From Lactobacillus sp. W8174 (lineage in GTDB: Bacteria; Bacillota; Bacilli; Lactobacillales; Lactobacillaceae): a stretch of 64,000 nt of DNA. Position numbers and translations under genes: made by a program. This document shows positions 14,153 to 47,329 of the stretch, piece by piece. How positions within the stretch are numbered: position 1 is the stretch's first letter; each line of letters opens with the position of its first letter. The stretch lies in assembly GCF_016100975.1 (NCBI RefSeq), contig NZ_JACFRN010000001.1:1-64000 (forward strand), given 5' to 3'. The notes under the pieces were generated by a model. It was given only the letters and a program-made list of their open reading frames with translations. It was not told the origin of the DNA and ran no database searches.

Positions 14153-14662
14153 ATGCAGAATGACAAGCAAAAATATCACAGCTTGGTATTTGGCATCCTA
14201 GGCGATCCGCAAGGTAAGGCTAGGCCGAGGTTTGCTCGCAGGGGAGAGCTTGTCAGTACATACACTCCACAAGCAACTCAAAAGTATGAAGAACTAATTA
14301 GATATTGTGCGCTAAAAGTAAGGCAGAAAAACGGCATTACTAAGCCTATCTCAGCTGACATTAGCTTGGGTATCAGAGCTTATTTCAAGATTCCCAAACA
14401 CTATTCTAAAAAGCGTAAAAAAAGGTGCCTTAATGGCGAAGAAAGGCCTAGTAAGAAGCCTGACAGCGACAATATCGCTAAGATAGTTCTGGATGGTTTA
14501 AACCCCAAAATGAAAGTGGATCATGCACAGCACAAAGCAGTATGTGTTCATGAGGGACTATATCGGGATGACAAGCAGGTGGTGTCACTCAAGGTGGATA
14601 AGTATTACTCAGAAAAACCAAGGGTAGAAATTACAGCGATATGGAGTGATGAAAGTGGCTGA
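14153..14662 (+). CDS. rusA: RusA-family Holliday junction resolvase
   Basis: 169 residues. RusA cuts four-way junctions produced by recombination or replication. The core motifs are clear: DPQGKARPRF near the N-terminus, KPDSDNIAKIVLDGLN and YRDDKQVVSLKVDKYY. These contain the conserved Asp residues that bind magnesium in the dimeric nuclease. AAAGGAGG gives the ribosome-binding site. It ends the recombination set together with the Sak protein and SSB. The gene appears complete. Confidence 0.92.
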   Translation: MQNDKQKYHSLVFGILGDPQGKARPRFARRGELVSTYTPQATQKYEELIRYCALKVRQKNGITKPISADISLGIRAYFKIPKHYSKKRKKRCLNGEERPSKKPDSDNIAKIVLDGLNPKMKVDHAQHKAVCVHEGLYRDDKQVVSLKVDKYYSEKPRVEITAIWSDESG

Positions 14663-15152
14663 GATACCTTATGACATAATTCATAAAATAGAAGCCAAAT
14701 ATGGCACACTGGCAATATCCGATGATAATCCGCTGATGATAAAACTGCACAAAGCAACAGGGGCAGAGCCTCGGCTAAAAATGAAGACAAGTGCCACTGG
14801 TAAGCATTTTACGCCACATTATTATGATGATGAAGTTATCAGGCTGACTAAGATGGGCTATTCTGTAGGTGAGATTGCTACAAAATTAGGCCACACTAGA
14901 TCAACAATAAACAAGATATTGCTTTACTATAAAATTAAGCCTAGGGATATATTTAAGGGCAAATACGATGATGTTTATATCGTTAATTTAAGCAATTTAA
15001 AATATTGGGGAATTGTAGCAAAGAATACTGAAGTAGCTAAAAGGAAAACTCACCATGAGTTTATCGTTAAGAAATATCATTGGTGTGATATAAAGCCCGG
15101 TGAAAAGTACATGGTAGCTGGCAATGATACTGAAGTTTTTGTAAAAAAGTAA
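14655..15152 (+). CDS. HTH-containing phage protein
   Basis: About 165 residues from the GTG at 14655 (GGAG 8 nt upstream). The ATG at 14649 is too close to that ribosome-binding site. A helix-turn-helix of homeodomain/resolvase type lies near the middle (MGYSVGEIATKLGHTRSTIN). The flanking segments are basic. The C-terminal region has IVKKYHWCDIKPGEKYMVAG, possibly a small beta domain. Proteins like this lie before ArpU in several Lactobacillus phages. A regulatory role is plausible but unproven. Confidence 0.68.
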   Translation: MAEIPYDIIHKIEAKYGTLAISDDNPLMIKLHKATGAEPRLKMKTSATGKHFTPHYYDDEVIRLTKMGYSVGEIATKLGHTRSTINKILLYYKIKPRDIFKGKYDDVYIVNLSNLKYWGIVAKNTEVAKRKTHHEFIVKKYHWCDIKPGEKYMVAGNDTEVFVKK

Positions 15153-15160
15153 GGTTGTAG

Positions 15161-15652
15161 ATGATGATTGGAGTTGTCGAATTGAGTTTGTTTAAAAAAT
15201 CAAAAATCAATAAAACAAAAACGATACAGAACGTTAGGGAGTTTTTTGAAGATGACTTCAAGCATTATCTTAACCTTGCTAATAAGCATTTAAGTGATAT
15301 CTCTAGTCCCACTTTAGATGATAGTGGCATTGCAGTGCATGATGGGCTTAATCATCAAGATGAACGCATAACTATTAACATTGATGCTCAAAATGTTGTG
15401 AGGGCTGTAGACCATACTATCAGTAGCTGTAGCTACCCCAGCAATATTATTTTGTATCTCTATTTCATTCAGAAAATTTCAAACGATAATATTGCTAAAA
15501 GGCTTGGATATCAGAATACAAGATTTCATGAAATAAAAAATGATGCGCTAGTCGAGTTTGCCGAAAGGTTCGATTTCTGGAGGCAGGAAGATAGTACGGA
15601 TATAGAAGACTTACGCAGTTTCGAAGATTCTGAAACTGTGACCGATAAATAA
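15161..15652 (+). CDS. ArpU-type late transcriptional regulator
   Basis: About 163 residues; a TTG start at 15182 is also possible. The C-terminal half looks like a sigma region 4/ArpU helix-turn-helix (IILYLYFIQKISNDNIAKRLG, FHEIKNDALVEFAERF). The N-terminal part is helical (VREFFEDDFKHYLNLANKHL). ArpU/RinA-like proteins stand at the end of the early region and activate late genes. The GCGGA array with 11-bp spacing directly downstream is the natural candidate for its binding site. The family call is from pattern and position. Confidence 0.78.
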   Translation: MMIGVVELSLFKKSKINKTKTIQNVREFFEDDFKHYLNLANKHLSDISSPTLDDSGIAVHDGLNHQDERITINIDAQNVVRAVDHTISSCSYPSNIILYLYFIQKISNDNIAKRLGYQNTRFHEIKNDALVEFAERFDFWRQEDSTDIEDLRSFEDSETVTDK

Positions 15653-15655
15653 AAA

Positions 15656-15716
15656 AGCGGAGTTTTAGCGGACACTTAGCGGAGTAAAAGCGGACAAAGA
15701 GCGGAGGTCAGGCGGA
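15656..15716 (+). repeat. Six GCGGA repeats at exact 11-bp spacing
   Basis: AGCGGA occurs at 15656, 15667, 15678, 15689 and 15700, and GGCGGA at 15711. All are in the same orientation and each is exactly 11 bp from the last. This phases them on one DNA face. The array starts 4 bp after the ArpU-type gene and ends 10 bp before a TATATT box. A binding array for the late activator is the simplest reading, but it is inferred. Confidence 0.85.
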
Positions 15717-15726
15717 GTGTTTTCGT

Positions 15727-15732
15727 TATATT
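15727..15732 (+). promoter_or_regulatory. Candidate late promoter -10 box
   Basis: TATATT (or the overlapping TATTAT at 15729) lies 10 bp after the last GCGGA copy. The place where a -35 box would be is inside the array and has no TTGACA-like sequence. This fits a promoter that depends on an activator bound at the array. The transcript would begin just before the gene at 15766. Confidence 0.5.
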
Positions 15733-15765
15733 ATGGTAGTGTCGAAAGATTAGGAGAAATAAGCT

Positions 15766-16062
15766 ATGGAAAATTATAGTGATGAATTAGTTAGAAATTT
15801 GACAGATCTAATCAAAGAACATGACAGGAAAGTATTAATTTCAAGTATTGCGGAAAAGCAAAAGAAGGAAAAAGAAAAATCCAACGAAATGATGAATACG
15901 GATGAAATTTCTAAAAAAGTTGTTGATTTCTCTGGCATAGCAATGGATTTTTGCAAGAAAACTTTAGAAGCACAAATGGAAAATCCAGAAAGCATTGATC
16001 CTTCTAGATTGTCAGCAATAACAAATCTTTATAAAGCTGTTTACAGTGCATGGTTTAATTAA
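15766..16062 (+). CDS. Hypothetical protein, first gene after the GCGGA array
   Basis: 98 residues behind TTAGGAGAAA. Highly charged and helical, with a Lys/Glu-rich stretch (EKQKKEKEKSNEMMN) that probably forms a coiled coil and a C-terminal helix (AITNLYKAVYSAWF). No family is recognised. Its position between the late activator and terminase means it may be the first late transcript product. Confidence 0.65.
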   Translation: MENYSDELVRNLTDLIKEHDRKVLISSIAEKQKKEKEKSNEMMNTDEISKKVVDFSGIAMDFCKKTLEAQMENPESIDPSRLSAITNLYKAVYSAWFN

Positions 16063-16135
16063 TAATCGTCCGGAACGACGTTAAACTATTGTCAACAATT
16101 CTTAAGTTTTTTCATTAATAACCTTTTCAAAAAAG

Positions 16136-16178
16136 TTGCGGTAATGGTTGTAGCCTGGTTCGATTCCAGACATCGCAA
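16136..16178 (+). ncRNA. tRNA-like element 1 (truncated)
   Basis: TTGCGGT pairs with ATCGCAA over 7 bp as an acceptor-like stem. A T-arm-like hairpin with a canonical TTCGATT loop lies between them. D and anticodon arms are missing; only 11 nt remain there. It looks like a collapsed tRNA or a minimal tRNA-like fold. Confidence 0.4.
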
Positions 16179-16181
16179 TAT

Positions 16182-16264
16182 AGGGACGTGGCAGTAAGTA
16201 ACTGCATGTGGCGATCGTATAAACACAAGAAACACAAGTTTCAGGTGCAACTCCTGACGTTCCT
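16182..16264 (+). ncRNA. tRNA-like element 2 (irregular anticodon region)
   Basis: Acceptor AGGGACG/CGTTCCT (7 bp with one GU pair), a perfect D-stem (GCAG/CTGC at 16191-16205) and a perfect 5-bp T-stem (TCAGG/CCTGA at 16241-16257) are spaced as in a tRNA. The 35 nt between them do not form a normal anticodon arm and contain a tandem duplication of AAACACAAG. The T-loop (TGCAACT) is unusual. It is a degenerate or specialised tRNA-like RNA. Confidence 0.42.
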
Positions 16265-16365
16265 CTAGACACGCCAAGACCTTAATGCATGTTTATTTTT
16301 CAGGAATATCCATAATTATGTTTTTAGAGTTTAGTGATTGAATATTAAGTGAGCGTGTCAAATCA

Positions 16366-16434
16366 AATATGGATTAATTGATATGGTAATCAAATTATTT
16401 AATGCAAGGGTTAGACCTATCAGTAATCCATATT
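16366..16434 (+). ncRNA. tRNA-like element 3
   Basis: An 11-bp perfect terminal stem (AATATGGATTA/TAATCCATATT) encloses a D-arm-like hairpin (TTGAT-ATGGTA-ATCAA, 16378-16393, with GG in the loop). A short AGG/CCT hairpin lies where a T-arm would be. The anticodon arm is not evident. The T-run after the stem means it could instead be a terminator with a large loop. Confidence 0.35.
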
Positions 16435-16438
16435 TTTT

Positions 16439-16509
16439 ATGTCCTTAATGTAAAAGTAGCATGGCGGTCTCGAAAATCGCAGATGATGGTTCAAGCCCTG
16501 CAGGACATT
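16439..16509 (+). ncRNA. tRNA-like element 4 (near-complete cloverleaf, anticodon CGA)
   Basis: Acceptor ATGTCCT/AGGACAT (7 bp), D-stem ATG/CAT, anticodon stem GCGGT/ATCGC around loop CTCGAAA, and a T-loop TTCAAGC. The T-stem has two mismatches and the D-loop lacks GG. The anticodon would be CGA, yet the long variable arm expected for tRNA-Ser is absent. It is probably a decayed or non-canonical phage tRNA. Confidence 0.45.
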
Positions 16510-16546
16510 TTTGACTAAATAAAGAGATTGGAAGGAAATATATGCA

Positions 16547-16705
16547 ATGCTTAATAAAAAAAGACTAAAAGCTATAGCAAATAAGCTTGGGATTAAAGTT
16601 ACTTTTGATTCGGATAATCCCGGCTTTTTCTCGGAAAATGACAAGAAAAATTATAACTTTTCTGATTTAGATAGGGTAATTGATAAAACATTACGATTGT
16701 TTTAA
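16547..16705 (+). CDS. 52-residue hypothetical protein
   Basis: A short frame starting MLNKKRLKAIANKLG, with GAAGGA 10 nt upstream, and ending DRVIDKTLRLF. It is polar with a helical N-terminus. No family is recognised. It follows the tRNA-like cluster and is followed by another short gene of similar spacing, so the two probably form a small unit ended by the terminator at 16889. Confidence 0.5.
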   Translation: MLNKKRLKAIANKLGIKVTFDSDNPGFFSENDKKNYNFSDLDRVIDKTLRLF

Positions 16706-16725
16706 ATCAAAGGAAGGCAAAGTAA

Positions 16726-16866
16726 ATGAAGATAACAGTAGAAGTGACTCCTAATGAAATTATTGAATTAACAAGGAAAAGAAAGTCACTTGATGGCAAA
16801 AAATATGCAGATATTATAACAAATAGCCTAAATAAGGCTTTTCAGGAAGCAATGAAAAATTTGTAG
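16726..16866 (+). CDS. 46-residue hypothetical protein, possibly ribbon-helix-helix
   Basis: ATG preceded by AAGGAAGG. The sequence starts MKITVEVTPNEIIELTRKR and continues with a helix ADIITNSLNKAFQEAMKN. The beta strand-helix-helix pattern resembles a minimal ribbon-helix-helix fold, but this is only a visual impression. A terminator follows 23 bp after the stop. Confidence 0.5.
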   Translation: MKITVEVTPNEIIELTRKRKSLDGKKYADIITNSLNKAFQEAMKNL

Positions 16867-16888
16867 TAATAACCAGTGTAAAAAATTT

Positions 16889-16914
16889 AGCACCTATAGT
16901 TAGGCGCTTTTTTT
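16889..16914 (+). terminator. Intrinsic terminator before terminase
   Basis: AGCACCTA pairs with TAGGCGCT (one A/C mismatch) around a 4-nt loop, followed by T7. It separates the two short genes from the terminase operon. Confidence 0.7.
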
Positions 16915-16945
16915 GTACCTAAAAATAGAAAGAAGGTGATAAGTA

Positions 16946-17476
16946 TTGAAGGATAAGCTTACGGTTAAACAGCGCAAATTTGCAGACGAATATATGATTT
17001 CGGGTAACGCGACAGAAGCGGCTATTAAAGCTGGTTATAAGAAAAAATCAGCATATTCAATCGCCGGGCAAAACTTGAAAAAACATGAAGTCATCGCCTA
17101 CATCCAAAAAAGGCGGAAGTCAATTGATAGTAAGAAAGTTGCAGACCAGAAAGAGATCTTTGAATACTTATCATCAATTATGAGGGGCGAGGAAAAAGAA
17201 AAGGTGATGACATCTAAGGGTATAGTTGAAGTTCCGATCCCTGTTAAAACGAGATTGAATGCAGCCAAAGAACTGCTAAAACGCAATCCAGGCGATCCGT
17301 TAATCAAAGCACAGACGGAAAAAGCAATTGCTGAAGCTAAACTTGCAACGGCACAGGCAGAGGAAGTAGACAAGATAGTTGATTCATCGGCTAAAAAGTT
17401 TGAAAAATTGTCTGTTGATGACCTTAAAAAACTAGCACATATAGGGGATGATATTGATGAAGTACAGCCACAGTGA
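16946..17476 (+). CDS. Terminase small subunit
   Basis: 176 residues from a TTG start with AGAAGGTGAT upstream. The N-terminus carries the Terminase_2-type DNA-recognition helix-turn-helix (LTVKQRKFADEYMISGNATEAAIKAGY). A basic segment and a long Ala/Glu-rich coiled coil (about 115-145) for oligomerisation follow. It recognises phage DNA and hands it to the large subunit encoded next, which it overlaps by 20 bp. Confidence 0.92.
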   Translation: MKDKLTVKQRKFADEYMISGNATEAAIKAGYKKKSAYSIAGQNLKKHEVIAYIQKRRKSIDSKKVADQKEIFEYLSSIMRGEEKEKVMTSKGIVEVPIPVKTRLNAAKELLKRNPGDPLIKAQTEKAIAEAKLATAQAEEVDKIVDSSAKKFEKLSVDDLKKLAHIGDDIDEVQPQ

Positions 17477-18905
17477 GATACGTGCAATTGAGCGTGGCGC
17501 GCAGGAAGAACTAGCAAGGCGTGAGTATCAATATTTTTTCGAGCTAGCTAACCCTAAATTGAAACTTTATCCTCACATAAAGTATATTTGCCAAAAAATG
17601 CAGAAGATCATGAATGGGGAGCAGAAGTTCTATATCGTAGAAATGCCTCCGCAACACGGTAAATCGACAACGATTACCGAAACTTTTGCTAGTTACTTCT
17701 TAATGAAGAATCCAGATAAGCATGTCATGATAACCACCTATTCAGAGTATCTATATACTCAGTTTGCCGAAGCCAATAGAAAAATTTTTAGCAAATGGGC
17801 ACCAAGGCTTTTTGGCTTAAAGATGAGTAAAAACACGTCAAAAACATTCAATATCCTTAATCACGATGGTGGTTTCTATGCAACATCAATGTTAGGTGGT
17901 GCTTCTGGTATGTCAGCAGACTTGTTAATTATCGATGATCCAAACAAGAATGCTGAGGAAGCGTCTTCAGCAACAATCAGGAAAAAGATATGGGATGAGT
18001 GGACGATGACCTTTTATCCTAGACTCCAAAAAGGTGGCTCCGTTATTGTCATTATGACAAGATGGCACACAGAAGATCTTGCTGGTCAATTGCTTAAGAA
18101 CAAAGCTTTACCGTGGGAAGAAATAAAGCTTCCAGCAATTGCAGAAAACATCCCTCCTGGTGAGACAGATGCAATAGGCAGACACAATGGGGATGCACTA
18201 TGTCCTGAATTGCATTCTTTGGAAGAACTGGAAACGCATAAGCTTGACATGGGGAGCCATAAGTTTGAGGCAATGTACCAACAGTCACCAACGATAGAAG
18301 GTGGCAACATCTTTAAACGTGAATGGGTTAAATTCTATGTTCCTAATAGACAAAAGATGACAGAGCTAGGACTAACTGAAAGAGATGTGGAGATACCAGA
18401 AAGGCACTTCGATGAACAGGTTCAAGCTTGGGATGCAACTTTTAAGAGCAAAGAGAATGATGACTTTGTAGCAGGTCAGACATGGGCTAGACGTGGTGCC
18501 AGGTTATATCTATTACCGCACTGGTGTCATAAGCGCTTATCTTTTACACAAACACTAGATGCCATTAGATCAATGACGCAACGTTATCCACATGCCACAG
18601 CAAAACTTGTGGAAGACAAGGCTAATGGTCCAGCTATTATCGATACCCTGAAGAAAGAGATACCTGGTATTGTTCCAGTATCACCTGGAGCGGACAGCAA
18701 AGAGGCACGTGCTAGTTCTGTCAGTCCAATATGGGAGGCAGGACAGATATACGTACCGCATCCCTTATGGATACCAGAAATCGATGATTGGCTAGAAGAG
18801 ATATTCGGATTCCCTAATATGCCACACGATGACAATGTGGATTCGATGGTCTATGCAGTGAGACGGTTAAACAAGAAATCAAATGGTCCATTTATCAGAT
18901 TTTAG
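17457..18905 (+). CDS. Terminase large subunit (ATPase and nuclease)
   Basis: 482 residues from the ATG at 17457 (AGGGGATG upstream). The packaging ATPase shows Walker A-like MPPQHGKST (about 63-71), Walker B LLIIDDP (about 156-162) and the coupling segment TRWHTEDL. The RNase H-like nuclease domain shows QAWDATFK, VEDKANGPAIIDTLK and DDNVDSMVYA with its acidic metal ligands. This is the motor that pumps DNA through the portal and makes the cut. The length is normal and the gene is complete. Confidence 0.95.
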   Translation: MKYSHSEIRAIERGAQEELARREYQYFFELANPKLKLYPHIKYICQKMQKIMNGEQKFYIVEMPPQHGKSTTITETFASYFLMKNPDKHVMITTYSEYLYTQFAEANRKIFSKWAPRLFGLKMSKNTSKTFNILNHDGGFYATSMLGGASGMSADLLIIDDPNKNAEEASSATIRKKIWDEWTMTFYPRLQKGGSVIVIMTRWHTEDLAGQLLKNKALPWEEIKLPAIAENIPPGETDAIGRHNGDALCPELHSLEELETHKLDMGSHKFEAMYQQSPTIEGGNIFKREWVKFYVPNRQKMTELGLTERDVEIPERHFDEQVQAWDATFKSKENDDFVAGQTWARRGARLYLLPHWCHKRLSFTQTLDAIRSMTQRYPHATAKLVEDKANGPAIIDTLKKEIPGIVPVSPGADSKEARASSVSPIWEAGQIYVPHPLWIPEIDDWLEEIFGFPNMPHDDNVDSMVYAVRRLNKKSNGPFIRF

Positions 18906-46676: not shown

Positions 46677-46978
46677 ACTAAACATATAGTAACTGATTTG
46701 GATGAAATTAAATAATTTAAGTAAACCGTATTTGGTTTTATAGTGAGCTAAAGGAATTAAATCTTTTTAGGATAAAGTGAAGCCTTGCTTTAATAATAAA
46801 AATTAAATTACAGATAGTTGTTATTAAGTTCAAACTAATAAACCATTTTTAAATAACATATTTATAGGTATTAAAATTTTAATTATTGAACTAATCAAGC
46901 AAAAATTTCAAAAAAATGTAGACATAAATAGAAACTTATGCTAAATTATTAAGAGTGGTCGAGAGATGACAACAAAAT
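46677..46978. other. Intergenic stretch before tRNA-Val with a likely promoter
   Basis: No gene is seen in these 302 bases. A promoter-like pair TAGACA (46919-46924) and TAAATT (46942-46947) with a 17-bp spacer lies just ahead of tRNA-Val and is the probable tRNA promoter. Confidence 0.55.
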
Positions 46979-47051
46979 GGAGGATTAGCTCAGCTGGGAG
47001 AGCATCTGCCTTACAAGCAGGAGGTCACAGGTTCGAGCCCTGTATCCTCCA
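46979..47051 (+). tRNA. tRNA-Val (anticodon TAC), copy 1
   Basis: 73 nt with acceptor GGAGGAT/ATCCTCC, D-arm AGCTCAGCTGGGAGAGC, anticodon loop CTTACAA and T-loop TTCGAGC. Identical to the copy at 47247. It has its own terminator directly after. Confidence 0.96.
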
Positions 47052-47052
47052 T

Positions 47053-47096
47053 AATGATGGTGGTGTGAAGGGAAGTTCGCGCCGCCATTATTTATT
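47053..47096 (+). terminator. Terminator after tRNA-Val copy 1
   Basis: A 17-bp helix rich in GU pairs (AATGATGGTGGTGTGAA with TTCGCGCCGCCATTATT) is followed by TATTG. It separates the first tRNA-Val from the tRNA-Glu/Val pair. Confidence 0.7.
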
Positions 47097-47170
47097 GATT
47101 TAATAAATTGAATCCTTGCATTTTCTTTCAGAATAGGTATACTATTGAATGTGCTTTGATTCAGAATAAT

Positions 47171-47242
47171 GACCCGTTGGTCAAGTGGTTAAGACATCGC
47201 CCTTTCACGGCGGTAACATGGGTTCAAATCCCGTACGGGTCA
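47171..47242 (+). tRNA. tRNA-Glu (anticodon TTC)
   Basis: 72 nt with acceptor GACCCGT/ACGGGTC, anticodon loop CTTTCAC and T-loop TTCAAAT. It sits 4 bp before the second tRNA-Val, so the two are cotranscribed. Confidence 0.96.
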
Positions 47243-47246
47243 CTTT

Positions 47247-47319
47247 GGAGGATTAGCTCAGCTGGGAGAGCATCTGCCTTACAAGCAGGAGGTCACAGGT
47301 TCGAGCCCTGTATCCTCCA
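47247..47319 (+). tRNA. tRNA-Val (anticodon TAC), copy 2
   Basis: Identical over all 73 nt to the copy at 46979. It is followed by a GCTACCG/CGGTAGC terminator at 47330. Confidence 0.96.
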
Positions 47320-47329
47320 TCGTTCTATG

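Follow-up and report, generated by a model that had tools for sequence, protein, structure and literature searches.

In the Lactococcus phage TP901-1, the activator Alt is described with four repeats at −76 to −32 of the late promoter, and at promoter P23 in Staphylococcus aureus, which belongs with the regulator Ltr of phi13, deletion of the repeats abolishes reporter activity (both according to PMC13123087). Here we describe a comparable arrangement in the first 64,000 nucleotides (nt) of contig NZ_JACFRN010000001.1 of Lactobacillus sp. W8174 (hereafter, the window; part of a 2.05-Mb genome), where six copies of the word GCGGA stand between an ArpU-type regulator gene (arpU) and a −10 box without a −35 element. 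We propose, with a probability of roughly 0.86, that this array is the operator of the late promoter and that ArpU binds it and activates late transcription; binding, activation, the start site and the extent of the transcript are what we infer from the comparisons below. We further think it likely, with somewhat less confidence, that ArpU and the array form a recognition code in which residues 119–121 and 124 of the protein set the word of an 11-base-pair (bp) array located within or immediately downstream of the regulator gene itself, a sigma-region-4-like domain is repeated once per helical turn, the late switch is retargeted by changing residues and array together, and new pairs are predictable in many prophages. 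Late switches of this type are already known, and the proposed code linking helix and word is the new part. To our knowledge, few late promoters have been mapped in temperate phages that infect Gram-positive bacteria.

An 11-bp array between arpU and the −10 box

The GCGGA cores begin at 15657, 15668, 15679, 15690, 15701 and 15712, that is, at steps of exactly 11 bp, and in six-letter form they read AGCGGA five times and GGCGGA in the last copy. The initial annotation had counted from the six-letter form (15656 onwards) and was right about the number and spacing of the sites, about their beginning 4 bp past the regulator gene (the arpU stop ends at 15652), about their ending 10 bp before a TATATT hexamer that lacks a −35 element, and about the ArpU-type identity of the neighbouring gene; its proposal that they lie along one face of the DNA stands only approximately, as by arithmetic 11-bp steps on DNA of 10.5 bp per turn drift by about 17 degrees per site, or about 86 degrees over six. 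Throughout the 64 kb, the only 5-mers found at least four times at one exact period (7–40) were GCGGA (six copies) and the overlapping AGCGG (five), both from this array, and 0 of 15 Markov sequences with the same dinucleotide make-up contained any. Tandem Repeats Finder reported the array in part, as a 22-bp unit, and the same six copies are present in a relative (L034).

For comparison, arpU genes were drawn from genomes of the same order and the same family, viral contigs and named phages. A first set retained 142 of 170 open reading frames (ORFs) after removal of near-identical regions and of ORFs with less than 120 bp downstream (the window's own arpU being represented by the near-identical L034), and a fresh set retained 91 of 191 after removal of 99 near-duplicates and one that was too short; the full set thus comprises 233 non-redundant genes on 225 loci. 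Beside the arpU stop, self-match at lag 11 exceeded a z of 2.5 in 64 of the 142 genes of the first set (2 of 142 for a control stretch inside arpU), self-match at lag 22 did so in 30 (none in the control), and any other lag from 6 to 30 did so in at most 9. At an array score of at least 12, period 11 was found in 93 of the 233 genes, period 10 in two and period 12 in one. Named phages with 11-bp arrays beside arpU include phiFL2A (TTGGCGG), vB_Lga_AB1 (CCGG) and phiEF-1.1 (GTCAA); phiadh and phiJB score below 12 (phiadh has, by eye, two ACCGGTA copies 11 bp apart), and Lj928, TMW 1.591 P1 and CR191 entered the array counts together with their near duplicates.

On its 3′ side the array is followed by the stretch TATATTAT. 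The sequence directly after the −10 box, which reads G[GA]TATTGTCGAAA... in many relatives (by eye), is probably the start of the late transcript, and we would place the first transcribed position (+1) near 15741. With +1 at this point, cores of the window array begin at about −29 and −40, around the place where sigma region 4 reads the −35 element. A scan of 15500–17000 for sigma-70 hexamer pairs gave none close to the array; the two that it returned both lie beyond 16390, against an average of 6.3 in shuffled sequences. With activated late promoters of the Ltr/Alt type the locus shares direct repeats between the regulator gene and the −10 box and the lack of a good −35 element.

Across the family, the last core lies 16–19 bp before the best −10 in 22 of the 93 arrays, 26–30 bp before it in 32 and at other distances in 39, a spread that rules out a single fixed distance. 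Given this variability, helical phase was examined instead, each array being represented by the −10-like hexamer that scored best within 45 bp; 24 of the 93 arrays had no good one and were dropped, and related loci were counted as independent. In the other 69, the −10 holds a preferred phase relative to the array: R is 0.41 for a period of 11 bp (Rayleigh p ~1e-5) and also for 10.5 bp, compared with 0.10 for 8 bp and 0.13 for 13 bp. RNA polymerase may be contacted at the last site, as the initial annotation had it; the phase is kept, but the distance varies.

As the sites begin 4 bp after the 3′ end of arpU, and in several relatives lie inside it, a bound protein would sit on the early transcription unit. 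The main effect of ArpU bound to the array might then be to repress or adjust either early read-through or the operon of arpU itself, and late activation would be secondary. We regard this as unlikely, given that the −10 stands in a preferred phase to the array and is without a −35 element, and that the regulators of measured function which appear comparable (phi13 Ltr and TP901-1 Alt) are described as activators (PMC13123087).

Array words and the ArpU recognition helix

The protein belongs to TIGR01637 (ArpU family phage packaging/lysis regulator; 71.8 bits, cut-off 43.1) and matches PHROG 248 ('transcriptional activator') at 1e-29. Its helix-turn-helix (HTH) spans approximately residues 92–144, with a predicted recognition helix from residue 119 (N119, T120, R121, H123, E124 and N127); positions in this helix probably correspond to R584, E585, R586 and Q589 of sigma-70. 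In an AlphaFold2 model (mean predicted local distance difference test score, 79.8; blocks within 91–140 at least 92), the last helix of the HTH likewise begins at residue 119, and the DNA-binding fold as modelled is sigma-region-4-like: it resembles 2h27_A, region 4 of sigmaE on −35 DNA (TMt 0.71–0.72, root-mean-square deviation 1.9), and 3hug_A (Z 8.2 over 80 residues), the structural matches covering mainly residues 53–148.

The arrays of different phages carry different words. GCGGA recurs in L034, L004 and L011 (loci by our own numbering), next to GCGGTC (L032, L033), CATAGG (L003), TGATAG (L005), ACCGGA (L145), TCGG (L006, L014), TGCAG (L113), TTGCA (L029), TTGGCGG (L067, phiFL2A), TTGTAGG (L068) and others. 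When these words were compared with eleven recognition-helix columns (residues 117–127 of the window protein), helix identity predicted word similarity among protein pairs that share less than 35% identity in the remainder of the sequence (Mantel r 0.218; 0 of 2,000 permutations). It still did so after clustering at 40% identity, with a single representative kept from each cluster (40 of 93 proteins; r 0.160, 8 of 5,000 permutations); when 11 columns were drawn at random from outside the HTH, 300 such draws all stayed below this value (highest 0.152). A scan of the 140 usable protein columns, made with no prior choice, ranked T120 (z 9.1), R121 (4.7) and N119 (4.0) first to third; after deduplication T120 was first, E124 third, N119 fifth and R121 eighth. 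These data suggest that the word changes together with a few protein residues that would be expected to read it.

Two simple rules linking helix and word were examined. The pattern T[RK]xxE at residues 120–124 goes with at least three phased GCG in 5 of 11 genes of the first set (7 of 131 others) and in 5 of 7 of the fresh set (6 of 84 others), and was worded after inspection of the data, which makes it no clean prediction. A stricter pattern, T[RK][FY][HNQ]E..N, likewise post hoc, goes with at least two phased GCGG[AT] in 6 of 8 genes of the first set (8 of 134 others). The initial annotation had called the regulator and its target a pair that can be read directly from sequence, and this appears to hold at least in part, as an ArpU-type gene stands before a −10 box without a −35 element and the word follows the recognition helix across many phages.

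A search in the reverse direction started from the pattern by itself, requiring four exact GCGGA copies spaced 11 bp apart, and returned at least 239 loci (at least 120 and at least 119 stretches) from viral contigs and genome contigs. Among the matches listed, an ArpU-like gene ends at the array in four of 239 (L399, L410, L416 and L452), and the residues at the place of 120–121 are, by eye, TR, TK, SK and TR, respectively; among the 233 ArpU proteins in general, 57 have [TS][RK] at these two positions. L452 is the same arpU gene as L011, and the helix of L399 reads NTRYFEMRN. The other two, both on metagenome viral contigs, encode remote ArpU-like proteins that were reached through the array pattern and not through homology, with arrays at the gene end: L410 (around 5640; ERTKAYTLCDN; profile E 6e-4) has seven GCGGA copies by eye, and L416 (ERSKVFELRK; profile E 2e-4) has five.

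Several spacers in the window array are A/T-rich (AAAAAA, GTTTTA, GTAAAA), and 11 bp is near the helical repeat, so the repeats could conceivably be a phased A/T-rich bend or UP-like element that aids RNA polymerase directly, with GCGGA incidental. This seems improbable, more so than a mainly repressive role, because it is the word that is conserved within the repeats, and differences in the word go along with differences in the recognition helix of ArpU.

A number of observations weigh against operator and code as proposed here. No array score of 12 is reached by 140 of the 233 arpU genes; some of these may be second copies away from the late promoter. After deduplication, the non-HTH columns I97 (second) and I22 (fourth) still rank high and N127 falls to rank 45. 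Over all 233 genes, T[RK]xxE goes with phased GCG in 10 of 18 cases and misses in 8. The stricter rule met a single case among the 91 fresh genes (L248, a match), which makes for a weak test; L271 and L311, which fit a relaxed helix pattern, have no GCGG[AT] array; and at least two phased GCGG[AT] occur in 11 of the 90 other fresh genes, namely five of the TTGGCGG class with helix SERS, one weaker relative and a mixed remainder. With GCGG also used by the SERS helix class, the relation of helix to word is many-to-one at best. In the reverse search, 235 of the 239 loci among the matches listed have no ArpU match beside the array (one, L366, is the contig of L034 with arpU cut, hence the missing match) and 216 have a G+C content of at least 45%, such that the array pattern alone is not specific. 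The phase test used a score threshold of 4.9, lowered from 5.5, which left 5 of 93 arrays, and its control on hexamers further downstream (R 0.03) is small, with n = 11. Finally, the best Foldseek E value for the ArpU model is 0.095 and a Z of about 8 is common among helical models, so that the fold assignment leans also on weak matches to sigma-family hidden Markov models (best 17.5 bits, cut-off 42.9).

Gene neighbourhood and tRNA-like elements

The order of genes around the array is RusA, HTH protein, arpU, 98-amino-acid (aa) ORF, small terminase subunit (terS), large terminase subunit (terL) and portal (Table 1). The 98-aa ORF has no NCBIfam match, and its Pfam and PHROG matches are weak (E 0.01 or worse).

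Table 1 Features at and around the array (window coordinates)
Feature	Coordinates	Strand	Evidence or remarks
RusA	start 14153		Upstream of arpU
HTH protein	14646–15152		Weak HTH matches; PHROG 11108; upstream of arpU
ArpU-type late regulator, 163 aa	15161–15652	+	TIGR01637; PHROG 248; AlphaFold2 model; sigma region 4 matches
Proposed ArpU binding sites: six 11-bp units, GCGGA at the end of each	15651–15716	+	Repeat analysis; L034; family period 11
−10 box TATTAT	15729–15734	+	Overlaps TATATT of the initial annotation (15727–15732); register common in relatives
Stretch after −10, recurring in relatives, here GGTAGTGTCGAAAGATTAGGA	15735–15755	+	By eye in relatives
98-aa ORF, presumed to open the late transcript	15766–16062	+	ORF list
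Mini-tRNA with acceptor-like stem, GG-containing 10-nt linker and T-arm, lacking D stem and anticodon arm	16136–16178	+	Motif scan; covariance model
terS, first recognised late gene	16946–17476	+	PF03592, 1.1e-26
terL	17448–18905	+	PF03237 and PF17289
Portal gene	start 18921		Downstream of terL

The array lies upstream of terS, where the packaging sites of many phages are found, and could in principle be a packaging (pac) site that the small terminase subunit recognises. We consider this very improbable: terS begins 1.2 kb away, named relatives differ in how far arpU and terS lie apart (about 0.5 kb in phiJB, about 2.5 kb in Lj928), the cos site annotated in phiadh is close to terS and some 0.9 kb away from arpU, and the word follows ArpU. 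Use of the array by another phage DNA-binding protein, for example the adjacent HTH protein with its weak HTH and PHROG 11108 matches, is just as doubtful, given that in the arrays found here word and ArpU recognition helix co-vary.

The leader of the presumed late transcript holds a mini-tRNA that neither ARAGORN nor Rfam calls. A tRNA T-arm motif with a pairable acceptor occurs within 1,100 nt downstream of arpU in 99 of 228 genes (against 3 of 101 control stretches upstream, most of whose sequence is coding), and some of these elements are full tRNAs. Thirty-nine are like the mini-tRNA of the window, with a 7-bp acceptor-like stem, an 8–16-nt linker and a T-arm, and their stem sequences differ between Lactobacillales phages; they were selected by pairing, so that their pair counts are biased. 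GG in the linker, which was not a selection criterion, is present in 36 of the 39 (mean 10.0 and highest 19 in 1,000 linker shuffles), at positions chosen after looking. A covariance model built from 10 mini-tRNAs found 25 elements (E up to 0.02; 15 outside the model set), all on the arpU strand and downstream of arpU, in 100 sources that were chosen mainly for T-arms already seen; in the window's own genome, the copy listed here was the only significant one (150 of 381 candidates scored). Such elements are possibly marks for processing of the late mRNA by RNase P/Z.

Other structures were seen in the same leader and elsewhere. Directly after the −10 box, L005, L016, L030 and L033 have by eye a hairpin of the TGTCGAAAGA...TCTTTCGA type, where the late transcript is expected to begin; the window has at this place a ribosome-binding site and the 98-aa ORF. 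At 16067–16088 lies CGTCCGGAACGACGTTAAACTA, a small hairpin with TTAAACTA, which recurs slightly changed in the leaders of L004, L032 and L602. A second tRNA-like fold, seen by eye and without an ARAGORN call, occupies 16183–16263 (GGGACGT pairs with ACGTTCC; there is also a CAGG/CCTG stem and the loop TGCAACT). Both ARAGORN and Rfam call a 71-nt tRNA at 16439–16509, which ARAGORN names tRNA-Ser(CGA); a long variable arm is expected of tRNA-Ser and is missing here, which makes this identity doubtful. Three tRNA genes (Val, Glu, Val; ARAGORN) stand close together at 46978–47321.

A proposed late switch and its relatives

We envision the switch as follows. arpU, as the last early gene, would supply ArpU directly upstream of the array, and the protein would bind each 11-bp unit through its sigma-region-4-like HTH, with one monomer or half-dimer per turn. 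The cores about 40 and 29 bp before the expected start would occupy the place of the missing −35 element, ArpU bound there would recruit RNA polymerase to the TATTAT box, and the late transcript (that is, packaging, structure and lysis) would start. If the word can be read from the helix, the start of a prophage's late operon and the target of its regulator could be proposed from sequence, and how phages avoid cross-talk between late switches would become testable. The ArpU family would also provide a naturally occurring collection of sigma-region-4-like domains that use many different DNA words, from which the way this fold reads DNA could be learned. A literature search covering titles and abstract openings among the matches listed returned no helix–word code for ArpU; such a table may exist in papers on the Ltr family (Quiles-Puchalt et al.) or on TP901-1 Alt.

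By family score and position the window regulator belongs with the ArpU regulators, and its likeness to Ltr family IV and to Alt is one of description. Within the ArpU family, phiFL2A of Enterococcus, phiadh, Lj928 and vB_Lga_AB1 of Lactobacillus, and phiEF-1.1 carry, by annotation or by match, a regulator of this kind ahead of their terminase genes; unlike the window, phiFL2A, vB_Lga_AB1 and phiEF-1.1 use other words with other recognition helices.

In the T4 middle promoters, the box of the activator MotA, a protein not known to be related to ArpU, lies near −30 and replaces the −35 element; the window is alike in having the proposed site of a phage activator in place of the −35, and differs in having a phased array instead of a single box. 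With TP901-1, as described in PMC13123087, the window shares a regulator of activator type and direct repeats that precede the late start; the four TP901-1 repeats, spread over −76 to −32, take up by arithmetic about 11 bp each, whereas the window has six copies that reach closer to the −10 box. phi13 (Ltr family IV), according to the same paper, has three 18-bp repeats and a 9-bp part, in contrast to the six 11-bp units of the window. With these two precedents, we propose that the window array works like those late switches.
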